Below are positions 26,301 to 61,425 of a stretch of 64,000 bases of DNA, one piece after another. The stretch is from assembly GCF_004923205.2 (NCBI RefSeq), contig NZ_SELD02000066.1:1-64000 (forward strand), read 5' to 3'. The notes below the pieces were generated by a model, which was not told the DNA's origin, ran no database searches, and was given only the letters and a program-made list of their open reading frames with translations. A program made the translations under genes and the position numbers. Origin of the DNA: Paracoccus aeridis. Its GTDB lineage: Bacteria > Pseudomonadota > Alphaproteobacteria > Rhodobacterales > Rhodobacteraceae. The first letter of the stretch is position 1. Each line of letters begins with the position of its first letter.

Positions 26301-28106
26301 ATGAGCCTCGATGATTTTCACCGCAACTTTCGTTCCGATCTGCAGACAATCATCGCCGAGCGCGTAGAGGCCGGCGAAGGCCCCTTTCCTTCGGATGAGC
26401 TCGTCTTTGCGGAAATGGTCATGGAGCATGTCGCAGAAACCGGGATCTGCGAGGCACCAACCGTTTGTCACTGGAGCGGCAAGGTCGGCAACGCGAAACT
26501 CCGCATTACGGGCTATGCGCTCAGCTCCGATGAAACGGCTCTCGACCTTTTCGTGACCCACTATTTCGGGACCGAAGAACTGAACGATCTCAGGGACTCG
26601 GATGCCACCGCAACCGCAAGCGAAGGCGTTCGCTTTCTGTTTCGAGCGGCAAGCGGCAACCTCGATGCAAGGATTGATCCGACGCATCCGGTCAGGGATC
26701 TGGTTGCGACCATTCGTTCTCGCTGGGGCGACATCGACCGACTTCGTGTGTTCGTGATCACCGATGGCAAGACCAAGACCAAGCGGTTCTCGAACAAAGA
26801 GGTTCACGAGAAGATGGTGGCCGTCGAGGCCATGGATATGGAGAGGCTGTTCCGCCACACCGAGGGCAAACCGCGAGACGAGCTGGCCGTGAGTTTCGTC
26901 CAGTCGATCGGTCGGGCGCTTCCCTGCGTACATGTCCCAGACCCTGATGCTGACTACGAGTATGCCCTTACTGCCATTCCCGGGCAGCTCATCCGGGATC
27001 TCTATCTGCGCTACGGGACGACCCTGCTCGAAGCCAATATCCGCACCTTTCTGGGGAACAAGCGCGCGGTCAACAAGGGCATCGTCGAAACGCTGCGAAA
27101 GGAACCGGAGCACTTCCTCGCCTTCAACAATGGCCTCGTGCTTGTCTGCGACGAAGCGGCCTTCGAGCGGACTGAGGACGGGAATCTGGGCCTGTCCTTC
27201 CTGAAGGGTCTGCAGATCGTGAACGGCGGCCAGACGACCTCGACCATCTACTTCTCATCCCGCGATGATCGCACCATCGATCTGAGCCACGTCATGGTCC
27301 CGGCCAAGATCATCATCCTCAAGGGATCGCAGGACGAAGCGCGCGAGAGACTGATCAGCAACGTGTCCCGCTATGCGAACAGTCAGAACGCGGTGAAAAT
27401 GTCCGACCTGTCGGCAAACCGCCCGTTCCATCGAGAGCTTGAGAAACTCGCGAACGACACGTGGTGCCCTGACGGTGCAACGCGATGGTTCTACGAGCGC
27501 GCAGCTGGCGCCTACAACGTCATGCTTCTGAGAGAAGGCACCACGCCGGCCAAAAGGCGAAACCTGAAGGAGATGATCCCGCCGAAACGCAAGCTGACCA
27601 AGAACGACATCGCCAAGTACCACGAAGCGTGGCGCTGCAAGCCGAACCAGGTCGCCATGGCTGGCGAGAAGAACTTCGCGGCCTTCATGGCTGCACTCGA
27701 TGACGATCCGACCATTGTGCCCAGCCCGCTCGATGCCCGCTGGTATCGGGCGATGATCGCCAAGGTCATTCTGTTCAAAGCGATCGAAAGCATGATCAAG
27801 ACAAAGGAAGCAAAGGAGGTGTTTCGCCAGGGATGGGTCAACATCGCGACTTACGTCGTATCGGTGGTTGCCGATCGACTTGGTGATCGGCTCGACCTTG
27901 AGCAGATATGGATGCGGCAAGGGATTTCGGGTGGTTTGCGGGATCTGCTCTGGGACTGGGCCGTGATCGTGAACGCAGAGTTCAACAGGATCGCTCCGGG
28001 TCAGCAGATTTCAGAAGTCGCGAAACGTGCGGACACCTGGGCAAAGGTCAGAGCGGCGGACTACCCGCATCATTCGGTGTCTATTTCTGAGATCAAGTCT
28101 CTCTGA
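26301..28106 (+). CDS. AIPR family abortive-infection protein
   Basis: 601 residues of the AIPR (abortive infection phage resistance) family, with the hallmark FNNGLVLVCDEA and LKGLQIVNGGQTTSTI around residues 275-320 and the RLISNVSRYANSQNAVKMSD block. Its biochemical activity is not settled. It recurs as the last core gene of GHKL-Z1-DUF4420 clusters. ATG at 26301 follows the DUF4420 stop by one base; an in-frame start at 26286 would overlap it. Same strand and tight spacing place it in the operon. Confidence 0.9.
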   Translation: MSLDDFHRNFRSDLQTIIAERVEAGEGPFPSDELVFAEMVMEHVAETGICEAPTVCHWSGKVGNAKLRITGYALSSDETALDLFVTHYFGTEELNDLRDSDATATASEGVRFLFRAASGNLDARIDPTHPVRDLVATIRSRWGDIDRLRVFVITDGKTKTKRFSNKEVHEKMVAVEAMDMERLFRHTEGKPRDELAVSFVQSIGRALPCVHVPDPDADYEYALTAIPGQLIRDLYLRYGTTLLEANIRTFLGNKRAVNKGIVETLRKEPEHFLAFNNGLVLVCDEAAFERTEDGNLGLSFLKGLQIVNGGQTTSTIYFSSRDDRTIDLSHVMVPAKIIILKGSQDEARERLISNVSRYANSQNAVKMSDLSANRPFHRELEKLANDTWCPDGATRWFYERAAGAYNVMLLREGTTPAKRRNLKEMIPPKRKLTKNDIAKYHEAWRCKPNQVAMAGEKNFAAFMAALDDDPTIVPSPLDARWYRAMIAKVILFKAIESMIKTKEAKEVFRQGWVNIATYVVSVVADRLGDRLDLEQIWMRQGISGGLRDLLWDWAVIVNAEFNRIAPGQQISEVAKRADTWAKVRAADYPHHSVSISEIKSL

Positions 28107-50799: not shown

Positions 50800-52803
50800 T
50801 CAAAACCATCCTCCGCGCCGTCCGAGCCAGTCGGAGCGGCGCTTGCCCTGCGGGGCCTGTCCCGGCCGGTTGATCTGCCCGGCGGGATCGGTGTCGGTGG
50901 GGGCGGCCCCGAGTTGATCCTCGAGGTCGCGCCATTTCTCGTCGGACCAGCGGTCCGCGCCCGCGATCCAGGCGGCGGCGCGGGCGTAGACCCGGCAATC
51001 CAGCGCCTCGTTGCGCTCGCGCAGCTTCTGCCACTCCAGCCGGGCGAAGCCGCGCTTCGTGCGCACCGTCACCAGCTGTTCGGCCACGAACTGCTTGAGC
51101 CATTCGTTCTCGACCCAATGCGGCAGGTGCACCGAGCCGGGCGGGAAGGCCGCCCCGTCGGCCATGTCCTCGTCGGTCGGACGCGCCAACCGCAGGAAGC
51201 GGTAGGTCTCGGCCTTGAAGGTCGACACCGCCACGGTCCAGAGCCGTGCGCCGCGGCGCAGCCGCTTCCCGCCCTCGGTCGCGTCGACGAAGGTCGGCCC
51301 CGAGACGGGGCTCGAGCGGTTGAACCCCTCGACGCCCTTGACCGGCGACACCTGCGCGAACCCCTGCGCGCGCGACCAGGAATAGACCGCCGGGGCCTCG
51401 TAGCCGGTGTCGATGGCCAGCCGCGCAATGCGCAGATGAGCGCCGCGTTCATGCGGCCAGCTTCTGTCCAGCAGCGCTGTCAATTCCGACCAAGCGTCAT
51501 GCCGATCCGGCCCGCCCTCGATGACGACGTGATCGACGAGCCAGCTTTCCAGCCCGCGACCCCAGGCCCAGACATCGACCTCGATCCGGTCCTTCTGCAC
51601 GTCGGCCCCGGCCGTCAGGAACAGCCCGCCCGCAGGCACCGTGCCGGAGGTCCAGCGCTCGCGGCGGTCGTAGAGCCGCTGCCAGTCTGGGGCTTCGCCG
51701 GTTTCGACCCATGTCTCGCCGAGGATCGTGTTCCGAAACGCCTTGACCGCCTCGTCCGAACCTTGCGCCGCGTCCCATGCCCGCACGATCCGCTCCCAGC
51801 TCAGCCAGCCGATCGGCGAGTAGAGTGCCGAGAGGTGATACCCGACCGTGGTCGGATCGGCGGCCGTGGCGGTCGCCCGCCATTCGCCGCCCTCCAGCAT
51901 CGCCGTCTTGTGGTGTTCCGCGACTGCCGCGTCGCAGCCCTCGCAGTGATACTCGGCCGTCTCCGGGCGGCCTTTCTGCCAGCGCAGCCGGTCGAACTTC
52001 AGCCACTGCATCGCCCCGCAATGCGGGCACGGCACGAAGAACCGCCGCTGGTCGCTGGCCTCGTATTCCCGCTCGATCCGGCTCAGCCCGCGGATCGTTG
52101 GCGTCGAGACCAGCAGCACCTTGCGCCGGTGCGCGAAGGTCAGCGACCGGGCCTCGGCCAACGTCACCGGGTCGCCTTCCTCGTCGGCCGAGGCCGGATA
52201 GGCGTCGACCTCGTCGAGGAAGATGTACCGCGCCGGGGTCGAGCGCAGCCCGACCGCCGAGTTCGCCCCGGTCATGATCAGGATGCCGCCCGCGAACTCC
52301 TTGGACAGCATCGTGTTGCCCGCGTCGCGCGACCGGGCCGGTTTGACCCGTTCCCGCAGCTCCGGGCTCTCGTCGATCAGCGGGTCGATCCGCTGGCGCG
52401 AGTTCCGCTTGGCCAGTTCTACCGTCGGCTGGACCGCCAGCATCGGGCCCGGCGCCTGGTGGATGGCGAAGCCGATCCAGTTGTTCCCTGCCTCGGTCGC
52501 GCCGACCTGTGCGGCCTTCATGAATACGATCCGCTGCGTGGGATCGCCGGGCGACAGCCGGTCCATGATCTCGCGCATGTAGGGCGTACGCACCGTGCGA
52601 TACCGCCCCGGTTCGGCCGAGGCGCGGCCCGAGAGCATCCGGTGCCGGTCCGCCCATTCCGAGACGGTCAGGTCCGGATCAGGCCGCAGCCCGTTGCCCC
52701 AGGCGCGCAGGATCTCGCCCGCGCCGTCGAAGTCAGTCAGCGCGTCATCTTCACCGGAAGTCGGGCCGGACCTCGGCGAGTTCGTCGAGGTGGGCGCGTA
52801 CAT
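50800..52803 (-). CDS. Phage terminase large subunit (GpA family)
   Basis: 667 residues of the lambda GpA family. ATPase domain: RIVFMKAAQVGATEAGNNWI with the Walker A-like Q-V-G-A-T-E, and FLDEVDAYP (Walker B). A CPHCG...CEGC zinc motif follows at ~260-295, then the RNase-H-like nuclease (ADVQKDRIEVDVW, LAIDTGYEA). Packages DNA into the prohead. Overlaps the small subunit gene by 53 bp. Confidence 0.96.
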   Translation of the reverse strand: MYAPTSTNSPRSGPTSGEDDALTDFDGAGEILRAWGNGLRPDPDLTVSEWADRHRMLSGRASAEPGRYRTVRTPYMREIMDRLSPGDPTQRIVFMKAAQVGATEAGNNWIGFAIHQAPGPMLAVQPTVELAKRNSRQRIDPLIDESPELRERVKPARSRDAGNTMLSKEFAGGILIMTGANSAVGLRSTPARYIFLDEVDAYPASADEEGDPVTLAEARSLTFAHRRKVLLVSTPTIRGLSRIEREYEASDQRRFFVPCPHCGAMQWLKFDRLRWQKGRPETAEYHCEGCDAAVAEHHKTAMLEGGEWRATATAADPTTVGYHLSALYSPIGWLSWERIVRAWDAAQGSDEAVKAFRNTILGETWVETGEAPDWQRLYDRRERWTSGTVPAGGLFLTAGADVQKDRIEVDVWAWGRGLESWLVDHVVIEGGPDRHDAWSELTALLDRSWPHERGAHLRIARLAIDTGYEAPAVYSWSRAQGFAQVSPVKGVEGFNRSSPVSGPTFVDATEGGKRLRRGARLWTVAVSTFKAETYRFLRLARPTDEDMADGAAFPPGSVHLPHWVENEWLKQFVAEQLVTVRTKRGFARLEWQKLRERNEALDCRVYARAAAWIAGADRWSDEKWRDLEDQLGAAPTDTDPAGQINRPGQAPQGKRRSDWLGRRGGWF

Positions 52804-58039: not shown

Positions 58040-58232
58040 GGCGCCCTCCCTCGTCGGAGGGGCGCGGCCCATAGAGCTTTTCGCCCAGCTGGCGGACGAG
58101 CTCGCGTTCCGGCCAGGTCAGACGTGCGTCCTCGAGCGAGACGGCGAGCAGACCCTGCTCGCGCCAGCCCTCGCGCTTCACCTGGTCCGGATCCCGTCGA
58201 TGGCCGCCGTAGCCCTTGGGGTACCACCTCAC
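58032..58232 (-). CDS. Small prophage protein
   Basis: 66 residues from a GTG: MRWYPKGYGGHRRDPDQVKR then REQGLLAVSLEDARLTWPER ELVRQLGEKLYG. Natural amino-acid composition, ATG/GTG-overlap coupling on both sides (4 bp with the RuvC-like gene, 8 bp with DUF6362). Function unknown. Confidence 0.65.
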   Translation of the reverse strand: MRWYPKGYGGHRRDPDQVKREGWREQGLLAVSLEDARLTWPERELVRQLGEKLYGPRPSDEGGRHG

Positions 58233-58750
58233 GCGACACCCCCGTTCGTCTCGATCGCCCAGAGCAGCAGCGCGATGGCGTCGGCCTCGTTGTCGTCGGC
58301 AGGGCTGAAGCCCCGGGCCCGCGCGGCTGCGATCATCGCCTCCTTCGGCGCATTGCCCTTGCCGGTGGCGTGACGCTTGATCGTGCCGACGGGAACGCCG
58401 GCATAGGGCACGCCCCGCAGTTCCGCCCATGCGGTGAGCGTGGCCATGAGCCCGCCATAGACATGGGCCGCGTCGGTTCCGGCGTGGCGCCGCACCTCCT
58501 CGAACCAGATCGCGGTGACCGGCCCCGACAGGCGGTCGATCTCGGTGAGCCAGTTGGTGAAGCGCAGGTAGCGCATGCCGCCGCCGTCATAGCGGCCGGG
58601 CCTGAAGCTCGCAGTTCCGCTGGTGATCAGCCCTTCGGCCGAGCGCAACCCCCAGCCGGTGCTGGTGCCGAGATCCAGCGCGAGAATGCAGCGGTTGAGA
58701 CTGCCGGCCGCCGTGAGAGGCACCGGGGCGATGTGTGGGGAGCGGTCCAT
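58229..58750 (-). CDS. RuvC-like Holliday junction resolvase family protein
   Basis: 173 residues with an RNase-H-fold: CILALDLGTSTGWGLRS (first Asp, ~25), AIWFEEVRRHAG (Glu, ~84), and ADDNEADAIALLLWAIE (paired Asp, ~155-160). Phage members resolve branched DNA before packaging. ATG at 58750 begins MDRSPHIAPV; the upstream open frame is through the repeat region. Confidence 0.88.
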   Translation of the reverse strand: MDRSPHIAPVPLTAAGSLNRCILALDLGTSTGWGLRSAEGLITSGTASFRPGRYDGGGMRYLRFTNWLTEIDRLSGPVTAIWFEEVRRHAGTDAAHVYGGLMATLTAWAELRGVPYAGVPVGTIKRHATGKGNAPKEAMIAAARARGFSPADDNEADAIALLLWAIETNGGVA

Positions 58751-59142
58751 GACGACCTCCTCTTCGATTGAGAGGCCGGGGCGGCACGGCTGCCTGGTGA
58801 GGGCAGCGCGCGCGCCCGGGCCGGGATCGCGAGGTCTGGTCACGGTCACGTTGTCGATGCCGGGAGCGCCCGGCACTTCCTTCAATGGCTTCACCCCGTC
58901 CGCTTGAAGGAAGTGAGGCCGCAAACCATTGGCAGAATGAGTATAAATCTCTTCTTTCAATATTTCAGTTACTTCATTGGGTATGTGTCTGGCACCCCGC
59001 CCCCTCCACGCGCGCGAGGGTCTTTGCGTGAAATATTGAAAGAAGTCCGCCGCGCCGGATTTCCGTTTCGGGACGGGGGCTTGGGCGGGAACATCCTTCA
59101 AATGAAGGATGGGGGCGGTTGAAGGAAGCATCGTCCCGGCCC
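58751..59142. repeat. Gene-free region with three nested inverted repeats
   Basis: Three perfect dyads share a TTGAA(G/A)GA half-site. IR1: CACTTCCTTCAA 58874-58885 with TTGAAGGAAGTG 58904-58915. IR2: CTTCTTTCAATATTTCA 58951-58967 with its complement 59029-59045 (17 bp, 61-nt spacer). IR3: CATCCTTCA 59092-59100 with TGAAGGATG 59103-59111. A lone TTGAAGGAAG is at 59119-59128. No convincing CDS. It divides the primase gene from the resolvase gene and could be a regulatory or replication-origin-like site. Confidence 0.8.
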
Positions 59143-61425
59143 TCACCGCATCGCCCGGAAGCGCATGGCTTTCCGCCCCCCGGTCCCCTGCTCGACCGTG
59201 GCGACGTCGCCGCTCTCGACGAGCGTGAGCAGGATGTCGTCGCGGTCGCGCGCACGGAGCCATTGCGAGGCGCGGGTCAGTTCGGACTTGGTGACGCCGG
59301 CCGATCCTGCCTTGCGGATGATCTCGCGCACGCGTTTCAAATGCGCCTCGGTCTCGGTATCGGCGACATGGCGCTCGACGGCATCGATGGTGCGCCGGGC
59401 GAAATGGCGCACGAAATCGATGGCCCAGAGGGCATCCTCGACACGGATGACGGGGTGGACCGCATCGCGCCCCACGGCGAGGACGAGCGCGACCTTGGCC
59501 GCGTTCTCCGCGATCCGGGCGAGGATCGGCGTGTGAAAGGTTCCTGCCGCGGCCCTGAGCTCGGCGGTGACCTCTTCGCCGAGCGCGTCGAAGCGCGCCT
59601 GCGCGTCGTCGTCCATCGGCACCGTCATCGGATCAACGGCCGTCTCGGGTCCGGAGGTCTTGCCGGCCAGGTTGCCGCTCGCCCCGCCGCCCTCGGCAAG
59701 GCGCTGCAGCCCTTCGATCAGCGGCCGGGGCGATTTGCGCAGCCCGGCACGACGGTTCTCGTCCGGATAGTCCTCCTCGCTCGGCAGGATGATGAACCGG
59801 GCGAGCGAGCCGTCCACCACGTTGGCGCCCTGCAGCGCCCCCCAGAAATGCAGCGGCGTCGTCGTGCCGTAGACGCAGAGGCAGGGCTGTACGATGTCGC
59901 GCCGCTCGTTTGAGCCGTCGCGGTTGGCGTATTCCGCGCCGAGGAAGACCCCGCTGGCAGCGGTGTAAAGCTCGGTCATGTTGTCGAGGATCTCGGTGAT
60001 GTGGCGCGGGCTGCGCTTCCGGTCGGCCGCCGCCGAGAGGAACATGCCGAACTCGTCGATCTGGAACAGGATCGCGGGCTGACGGTGGAGCGCGGTCAGG
60101 AGCCCCGCGCCCGAGGCGATCTTGTTGCCGCCGAGGTGTTGCGCCAGCCCCGCCGCGAAGAACAGCTCGTTGACGACCTCGCGGGCGTGGTTCTTGCCCG
60201 AGCCGCTGTCCGCAATGCCGACGATGTAGAGGTTCGTGCGCAGGTCGGTCGCCGTGCGGTAGCGCCGTCCCATCAGCGCGCCGAGGGCGCAGAGGCTGGC
60301 GCCCACCGCCAGAAGCGGCTGGGGTCTGCGCGCCGTGTCGATCATGTAGCGCGCGAGATCGCCCACGAGCCCGCCCGGGATCGTCAGCGTGAAGGACGGC
60401 ACAGGCGCGAGGATCGGCATCGGGGCATCGGGCTGGGCGAGCCGCGCGAGGAGGCCCGCCGCGGGATGCTCGTCGCCCGCGCAGACTTTCTGACTGCCGT
60501 CGAGCAGCAGGTCGGGATCGGGGCGCCAGCCCTTCTCCATGGCGAGGTGATAGATCGTGCCGGCGCCGATCCGCGCAGGTTTGAAGCTCGCCCATGCCTT
60601 CGACGTCTCGACCGGGTCGTTCTTGGCCGCCTGCGCCGACCAGTCGGCGAAGAGCGTCGCGCCCTCCTCGCCCAGCGCGCCCTTCAGCGCCATGCCGATG
60701 CGCATCCAGCTGTCGTAGTCGAGCTCTGCATTGGGCAACCAGGCGAGCGCACTCCGGATCGCGGCCAGCGTGCCGGCCTGCGCATGCGCCGGCAGACACG
60801 GATGCCCGGCCCCGTTGGCAGTCTTCGCACCAAGGCTCTTCGGGCGCATCTCGGGCGGGATCAGCGCCAGCGCCTTGTCGAGGAACGCCGCTGCCTGTTC
60901 GGCGTCGATTTCGGGCAGGCTCTCGATGTCGAGATCCGCGAGCCCCTCGTCCGGCCAGACATAGGGCTGGCCGGTATCGGGATGCTTGGCATAGGCCACG
61001 AACTGCTGTCCGAGGCACAGAACCTCGAGCGGCGCGCGCCGGATCCCGGCGAAAGGCTCGGTCGCGCGATAGACCATGAGCCGCTTCGGCGGCTTTCCGA
61101 TCCTGAGCGCCGGCGTGTCGCCCAGCCGTTCGCGGGCGAGCCGCTCGATGCGGAGCGCCAGGTCGCCATCCTCGGCAATATCGATGTCGAGCGCGGCGAC
61201 CGCGCCGCCGACGATCCCGACCCCGCAGTCGGGCCAGCTGGACCAGGTCGCGACCTCGAGTTCGGTCGTGGCGCGGCTCGCATGCCGGTTCCACTGCGGG
61301 TAGTCGTGCCAGGCCGCGCGGGCGAACTGGCCGGGCTTCTTGGTGCCGGGCGCGATCGGCAGGATCGCGTAGCCGTTGGTCACGAGACGCGCGCCCACGC
61401 GCGCCATCCACGAGGTGTCCGCCAT
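59143..61425 (-). CDS. Primase-polymerase / DUF3987 replication protein
   Basis: 760 residues. N-terminal bifunctional primase-polymerase (YAILPIAPGTKKP, GVGIVGGAVAALDIDIAEDG with metal Asp residues), a PriCT-like helical segment (LAWLPNAELDYDSWMRIGMA LKG) and a C-terminal DUF3987 ATPase-like domain (VGIADSGSGKNHAREVVNE with Walker A; FQIDEFGMFL Walker B). Such fusions prime and unwind at the replication origin of phages and plasmids. It overlaps the DUF6511 stop by 1 bp. Confidence 0.9.
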   Translation of the reverse strand: MADTSWMARVGARLVTNGYAILPIAPGTKKPGQFARAAWHDYPQWNRHASRATTELEVATWSSWPDCGVGIVGGAVAALDIDIAEDGDLALRIERLARERLGDTPALRIGKPPKRLMVYRATEPFAGIRRAPLEVLCLGQQFVAYAKHPDTGQPYVWPDEGLADLDIESLPEIDAEQAAAFLDKALALIPPEMRPKSLGAKTANGAGHPCLPAHAQAGTLAAIRSALAWLPNAELDYDSWMRIGMALKGALGEEGATLFADWSAQAAKNDPVETSKAWASFKPARIGAGTIYHLAMEKGWRPDPDLLLDGSQKVCAGDEHPAAGLLARLAQPDAPMPILAPVPSFTLTIPGGLVGDLARYMIDTARRPQPLLAVGASLCALGALMGRRYRTATDLRTNLYIVGIADSGSGKNHAREVVNELFFAAGLAQHLGGNKIASGAGLLTALHRQPAILFQIDEFGMFLSAAADRKRSPRHITEILDNMTELYTAASGVFLGAEYANRDGSNERRDIVQPCLCVYGTTTPLHFWGALQGANVVDGSLARFIILPSEEDYPDENRRAGLRKSPRPLIEGLQRLAEGGGASGNLAGKTSGPETAVDPMTVPMDDDAQARFDALGEEVTAELRAAAGTFHTPILARIAENAAKVALVLAVGRDAVHPVIRVEDALWAIDFVRHFARRTIDAVERHVADTETEAHLKRVREIIRKAGSAGVTKSELTRASQWLRARDRDDILLTLVESGDVATVEQGTGGRKAMRFRAMR

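Follow-up and report, generated by a model that had tools for sequence, protein, structure and literature searches.

The repeats between the primase and resolvase genes of a Paracoccus aeridis prophage are very probably a conserved iteron origin, common to a family of alphaproteobacterial prophages and bound by the winged helix of the primase-helicase. This is the best-supported reading, and it builds on the repeats and their register, on the concerted change of all copies in an array, on the co-switching of half-site and wing, and on the exchange of both as one cassette. The window, i.e. the whole stretch of 64,000 bp (64 kb) that was analysed, has the following features in and beside the repeat cluster.

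58229-58753, minus strand, RuvC-like Holliday junction resolvase gene (PHROG 159, E 6e-29; no Pfam match)
58751-59142, primase-RuvC intergenic gap of about 390 bp, both flanking genes on the minus strand
58754-58846, minus strand, leader of the RuvC-like gene, conserved, where the exchanged cassette has its right-hand border
58874-58885/58904-58915, IR1, a 12-bp dyad of two opposed half-sites with an 18-nt spacer
58937-58977, AT-rich stretch, candidate unwinding element, overlapping the IR2 far arm
58951-58967/59029-59045, IR2, a 17-bp dyad with a 61-nt spacer, the central block
58951-58967, minus strand, IR2 far arm, with a degenerate third repeat following on (about 58968-58976)
58968-59028, IR2 spacer of 61 nt, carrying an alternating purine-pyrimidine (CG)n run
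59029-59045, plus strand, IR2 arm nearer the primase, TGAAATA-TTGAAAGAAG, two tandem half-sites at 8 bp
59092-59100/59103-59111, IR3, a 9-bp dyad of two opposed half-sites with a 2-nt spacer
59119-59128, plus strand, lone half-site TTGAAGGAAG

The initial annotation had described three perfect dyads and a lone half-site within 255 bp between the primase and resolvase genes, and all of them are in place. Ranked by length, the 17- and 12-bp dyads come first and second among the perfect inverted repeats of the window (spacer at most 100), and among dinucleotide shuffles of the 392-bp region arms of 17 never appeared (0/2000) and arms of at least 12 appeared in 6/2000. The dyads are real and far beyond what is expected by chance. 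What had been overlooked is that tandem repeats of 8-9 bp are hidden inside them (TGAAGTAAC, TGAAATAT and TGAAAGAAG in a row on the IR2 side); in the window they stand out only weakly from shuffled arms (p 0.05 and 0.12), and relatives show them far more clearly. TTGAARGAAG has five copies in the window, all five inside the primase-RuvC interval, and nine in the 3,319,602 bases of the genome, five of which lie inside these 255 bp. This restriction to one interval of the window weakens another of the earlier options, a cooperative operator, in which the half-sites would bind a phage regulator, or the primase regulating itself, and control the downstream ruvC operon. It is true that the array sits in the RuvC-like gene's leader and that this gene and the primase gene run in one direction, that several opposed half-sites suit cooperative binding, and that an origin can play both roles. 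A regulator would however be expected at other promoters as well, and no further copy exists in the 64 kb; the array moreover comes after the primase gene, and its type goes with the primase wing, whereas the ruvC leader keeps 94% identity where the type has switched. We regard an operator as quite unlikely.

A small ORF at 58904-59122 was rejected as a gene, as it has no Pfam match and the indels across the alignment of relatives are not multiples of three. The GC skew does not change at the array (55-64 kb examined). The alternating purine-pyrimidine run in the central spacer has a median length of 10 and reaches 20 in 125 arrays, compared to 6.8 in shuffled sequence and 5 in an in-gene control. 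Such a run is prone to form Z-DNA, and Z-alpha domains are among the winged-helix fold matches described below, a connection that is speculative.

To follow the repeats in relatives, loci were fetched with the primase, at least 80 from genome contigs and at least 80 from viral contigs, the same prophage sometimes being present in both collections. Among the matches listed, 158 loci (window and duplicates included) have enough sequence past the primase stop to be counted. The initial annotation had asked for a check of whether the repeats are conserved in related prophages, and they are: at least one TTGAARGA half-site is kept in the primase-RuvC interval of 148 of these 158 listed loci and at least two in 130, and ten have none. 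One locus has ten half-sites, the highest number, and in 18 of the 158 listed loci the number is reduced to one. The register of the half-sites relative to the primase stop is constant across relatives, and the interval lies directly 3' of the Prim-Pol/PriCT-2/DUF3987 gene. The whole region was found by direct DNA search in five of 101 genomes, its own one counted, with six further matches that are short and near the E limit; no close relative was found in the phage collection (557 records, all below 60% identity) or in the plasmid collection (eight partial matches). In a Sulfitobacter plasmid (L172, 9357-11940), where the primase part with PriCT-2 and the DUF3987 part are two genes, there is no TTGAARGA array after the second gene. 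A decaying copy is seen in locus L021 (7113-7448), where a frame change lets the primase reading frame continue into the array, and which lacks block A and part of the central block.

The arms of the relatives are arrays, with TCYTTCAA-TCYTTCAA on one side and TTGAAATA-TTGAAATA-TTGAAAGAAG on the other, and the layout consists of opposed arrays, built of tandem 8-9-bp repeats, on either side of a spacer of about 60 bp. The core-to-core distances below 14 bp in 128 distinct arrays are 8 bp (148 times), 9 bp (32 times) and 11 bp (twice) with no others, and shuffles gave none at all. At least four copies of one 7-mer, with both orientations present, occur downstream of the gene in 90/176 non-redundant loci, compared to 0/176 inside the gene and 1/170 upstream. 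The greater AT-richness at IR2, also noticed in the initial annotation, recurs across 114 aligned arrays, with a mean AT of 0.69-0.81 at 58937-58977 and mostly 0.2-0.6 elsewhere; the peak of 0.81 (about 58947-58977) is flanked by the primase-side arm and the 12-bp dyad and overlaps the IR2 far arm.

All copies in an array change together between lineages, in which they read TTGAARGAAG, TTGAARGATT, TTGACGKAAG, TTGAGGAATT, TTGAGGGATT or TTGACGAATT, and arrays can be typed by half-site positions 9-10 as AG or TT. This concerted change argues for a trans-acting reader, since a hairpin would let each stem drift independently. The same point bears on a DNA stem-loop or cruciform origin of the kind proposed for pRN1, in which the initiator would recognise the paired 17-bp arms and not the repeats. 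Those arms and their 61-nt spacer resemble the 21-nt stem and 58-nt loop of pRN1, where a stem mutation is rescued by a symmetric one according to the accessible part of PMC4234260. Across 56 TT-type arrays, however, the median length of the longest perfect stem is 8 bp (5-18), compared to 6 after shuffling, where it reaches at most 9, and yet the repeat cores and their spacing persist, and the outer half-sites fall outside the stem. The median in AG-type relatives is 12 bp. Judging from these arrays, a long stem is not generally conserved, and the large cruciform suggested earlier, which has the 17-bp arms of the window in its favour and the unconserved stem of the TT-type arrays against it, is an unlikely explanation. 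A structured RNA in the ruvC leader, the last of the earlier suggestions, could draw on arms able to form a hairpin and on the conserved ruvC leader downstream of them. It is left unsupported by an Rfam scan of six loci, with no relevant match at E <= 1 and a single chance-like match to mir-598, and by a home-made covariation test of 114 sequences, with no column pair above the tree-based null (best expected count 3.6), and we find it extremely improbable.

For an iteron origin the reader would be sought in the primase-helicase itself, which is encoded next to the array.

59143-61425, minus strand, Prim-Pol + PriCT-2 + DUF3987 primase-helicase of 760 aa, initiator candidate (Pfam; DNA primase in PHROGs)
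59146-59355, minus strand, C-terminal winged helix, residues 691-760, candidate origin-binding domain (AlphaFold2, VIA-align)
59170-59187, minus strand, codons 747-752 of the wing tip, co-switching with half-site positions 9-10

The Prim-Pol (AEP prim-pol) domain is recognised by Pfam (E 3e-13), and the N-terminal part resembles the prim-pol of pRN1, 1rni (Foldseek, E 5e-5). AlphaFold2 predicts a winged helix at residues of about 649-760 with a mean pLDDT of 87, and VIA-align places the C-terminal domain together with many winged helices (Z about 10-11 over 64-68 residues); Foldseek with this domain alone gave no match at E <= 0.001. The origin-binding domain of P4, which we take to be PDB 1KA8, is absent from the structural matches listed by Foldseek and VIA-align, an absence that excludes nothing. 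A phmmer search against PDB gave nothing useful. The helicase part matches Pfam DUF3987, and its predicted structure is of low confidence, with weak MCM/ORC-like matches; DUF3987 is predicted to be a helicase in the accessible part of PMC5862659.

The tip of the wing, residues 747-752, is GGR[RK]-like with AG arrays and [ST]xT[KR]-like with TT arrays. Of 107 typed rows, 105 have an array type that matches the wing, counting one tie (L068) as TT and including 15 rows typed on a single site; the two exceptions are L021, which has a frame-shifted C-terminus, and L042, in which a GGRKA wing is paired with a TT/TC-type site. On a tree of residues 1-690 (114 rows below 97% identity out of 153 proteins; a quick tree with SH-aLRT only) the array type has changed at least 16 times and the wing at least 17 times, and in independent pairs on supported branches the wing follows the type in 9.9 of 10 on average and never goes the opposite way (sign test, median p 0.00195). 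Within 67 rows of the more distant clade, from which L042 had been excluded in advance, MI/H reaches 1.0 at three wing residues, 747, 749 and 750, and no residue of 1-746 exceeds 0.34. Along the DNA, also with L042 left out, the association stays near zero until the wing is reached, is high there and at the outer half-site positions, is mixed and has weaker columns between the latter, and is low again in the ruvC leader. This co-switching is the strongest support for our best reading, an origin read by the wing.

The manner of the switch is seen when near relatives are compared, using 14 type-discordant and 10 same-type pairs that were hand-picked from the tree. In the discordant pairs the identity is 0.86 in the gene and 0.84 in the 60 nt before the wing, falls to 0.43 between wing and stop and to 0.58 across the array, and is back at 0.94 in the ruvC leader (n=14), compared to 0.93, 0.93, 0.91, 0.89 and 0.95 for the same parts in the same-type pairs (n=10). 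As the drop is limited to wing and array, both have been replaced as one block by recombination, and this single-block exchange makes a functional coupling of the two likely. The block can also be read as linkage only, with wing and array travelling together as neighbours and another protein binding the repeats, and this explanation stays a rival because no recombinant separates the wing from the array. The left border of the block lies however inside the gene, at the wing tip of a predicted DNA-binding domain, the association within the array concentrates on the outer half-site positions with weaker columns between them, and distant relatives with other repeat sequences differ also in the C-terminal domain, and linkage alone is to us quite improbable. 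The ruvC leader is 94-95% identical in both sets of pairs, even beside diverged arrays; it has a TTCG-loop hairpin in relatives and no Rfam match.

Of the options raised in the initial annotation, iterons or an origin beside the primase-polymerase is the one that has become well supported, by conservation, by the concerted change of the repeats and by their co-switching with the winged helix; the structured RNA has lost its footing, the operator has become weaker, and the cruciform is unlikely. In the iteron origin that we propose, about ten half-sites of 8-10 bp (TTGAARGAAG here) are organised as a central block of opposed tandem arrays, with 8-9 bp from repeat to repeat and a spacer of about 60 bp; the AT-rich stretch sits at the far arm, and outer dyads flank the block on either side. 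The primase-helicase encoded immediately upstream would bind the half-sites via its C-terminal winged helix, with wing tip 747-752 reading half-site positions 9-10. Its helicase part could then assemble on the opposed arrays, the AT-rich stretch would be melted, and the primase-helicase would prime replication. Binding, melting and initiation at the array are what we infer from sequence comparison.

The layout may reach far beyond these prophages. A detector of opposed tandem units (pass at 24 or more) was passed by 24 of 45 replicons, 26 of which are family loci hand-picked for diversity, and by none of 43 in-gene controls (maximum 20). Five of 15 named phages passed, JY40, Sphingomonas phage Kharn, BPP-1, AP-16-3 and Torfinnsbu, the last with a repeat of low complexity, as did the archaeal plasmids pRN1, pHEN7 and pRN2. 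Among the 45 replicons, Loktanella pCB2051-A and NV1.1.1 are borderline, and no array was detected in CRP-901, C7, CASP1, Klebsiella 6991, H188, VpKK5, RHEph04, pDL10 and others; the detector misses RHph_TM3_3_14B, L184 and L185, the repeats of which are seen in k-mer counts. Some 400-650 nt past the primase of Synechococcus phage Ssp-JY40 there are about ten TGTCGGTTAGC-type repeats in a matching layout, TTTGGAATT repeats occur in Rhizobium phage RHph_TM3_3_14B and Sinorhizobium phage AP-16-3, and BPP-1 (L338, about 26606-26710, between bbp27 and bbp28) has perfect opposed 22-nt arms, TTGCCTCGT-TTGCCTCGT, with a spacer of 60. In Sphingomonas phage Kharn (L342) arms of the tandem GTTGTATG-GTTGTAT are opposed at 63 nt about 145 nt past the primase, with full detector score. 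The pRN1 arms hold the 9-bp tandem TGTCCATAG-TGTCCAACT (shuffle p 0.016), the pHEN7 arms the 9-bp tandem TGTCACCAC-TGTCACAAC (p 0.0014) and the pRN2 arms a weak tandem repeat (p 0.13), and none was found in the arms of pDL10 and pSSVx; across the five plasmids the Fisher p is 0.0046. These comparisons show, at the level of sequence, that several distant phages and the pRN plasmids have the layout in common with other repeat sequences, and that other relatives are without it.

It is a real, if tentative, possibility that all this is one type of origin, from crenarchaeal plasmids to tailed phages, made of opposed tandem iterons of 8-10 bp around a spacer of about 55-75 bp and placed 3' of an AEP-helicase-winged-helix gene. 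The pRN1 stem-loop would then be such an array, and in alphaproteobacterial prophages wing and array would form an exchangeable specificity cassette with the recognition code GGR[RK] to AG and [ST]xT[KR] to TT. With such a cassette a phage could change the identity of its origin in one recombination event, and the exchange suggests a way in which the origins of related prophages could stay distinct within one cell. With a candidate origin located, a candidate for its reader and natural variants by the dozen, the code between reader and site becomes testable, and a simple re-reading of the pRN1 origin is offered, against which the rescued stem mutation of pRN1 speaks. Our search of open-licence papers gave no description of origins in DUF3987 primase-helicase phages or prophages.

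Among known systems the pRN1 replicon is similar in having a prim-pol, a helicase and a C-terminal winged helix, with the origin 3' of the gene and opposed arms around a 58-nt spacer, compared to 61 nt here (accessible parts of PMC4234260 and PMC3869888). The accessible part of PMC4234260 maps that origin to a 100-bp stem-loop 3' of orf904 and says that it lacks iterons, and extends the stem-loop idea to phage BIP-1. The pRN1 helicase is however of SF3 and not DUF3987, and the arrays of the phages differ by additional outer sites and, in many cases, by the lack of a long stem. In the accessible part of PMC3869888, pRN1 replication is abolished by 3-bp deletions in the loop but withstands several base changes there, in keeping with a spacer whose length is fixed. 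BPP-1 is alike in its opposed arms with a 60-nt spacer 3' of the primase gene, and differs in its repeat sequence and in having the array about 470 nt beyond the stop codon; the BIP-1 stem-loop of PMC4234260 may or may not be this array, as the legend in the part available to us is silent on it.

The rep-ori of SaPI/PICI, phage-inducible islands of Gram-positive and Gram-negative bacteria, has iterons directly 3' of the initiator gene, in two sets that flank an AT-rich region and are recognised by the C-terminal domain of the initiator (accessible parts of PMC7581432 and PMC6092414). Iterons directly 3' of the gene are shared with our candidate initiator, but what speaks for recognition by the C-terminal domain here is the co-switching of wing and half-site only, and the helicase (DUF3987) and the repeat sequences are others. 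Going by the window annotation only, this is also a tailed-phage genome, with a terminase large subunit gene (50800-52803) and replication genes, and not a satellite. In satellite phage P4 the winged helix of the alpha primase-helicase binds origin repeats (accessible part of PMC4234260), although its primase is of the TOPRIM kind and the one here is archaeo-eukaryotic (Pfam, Foldseek). By analogy, the array would work like the SaPI/PICI and P4 origins, but is not a member of either.
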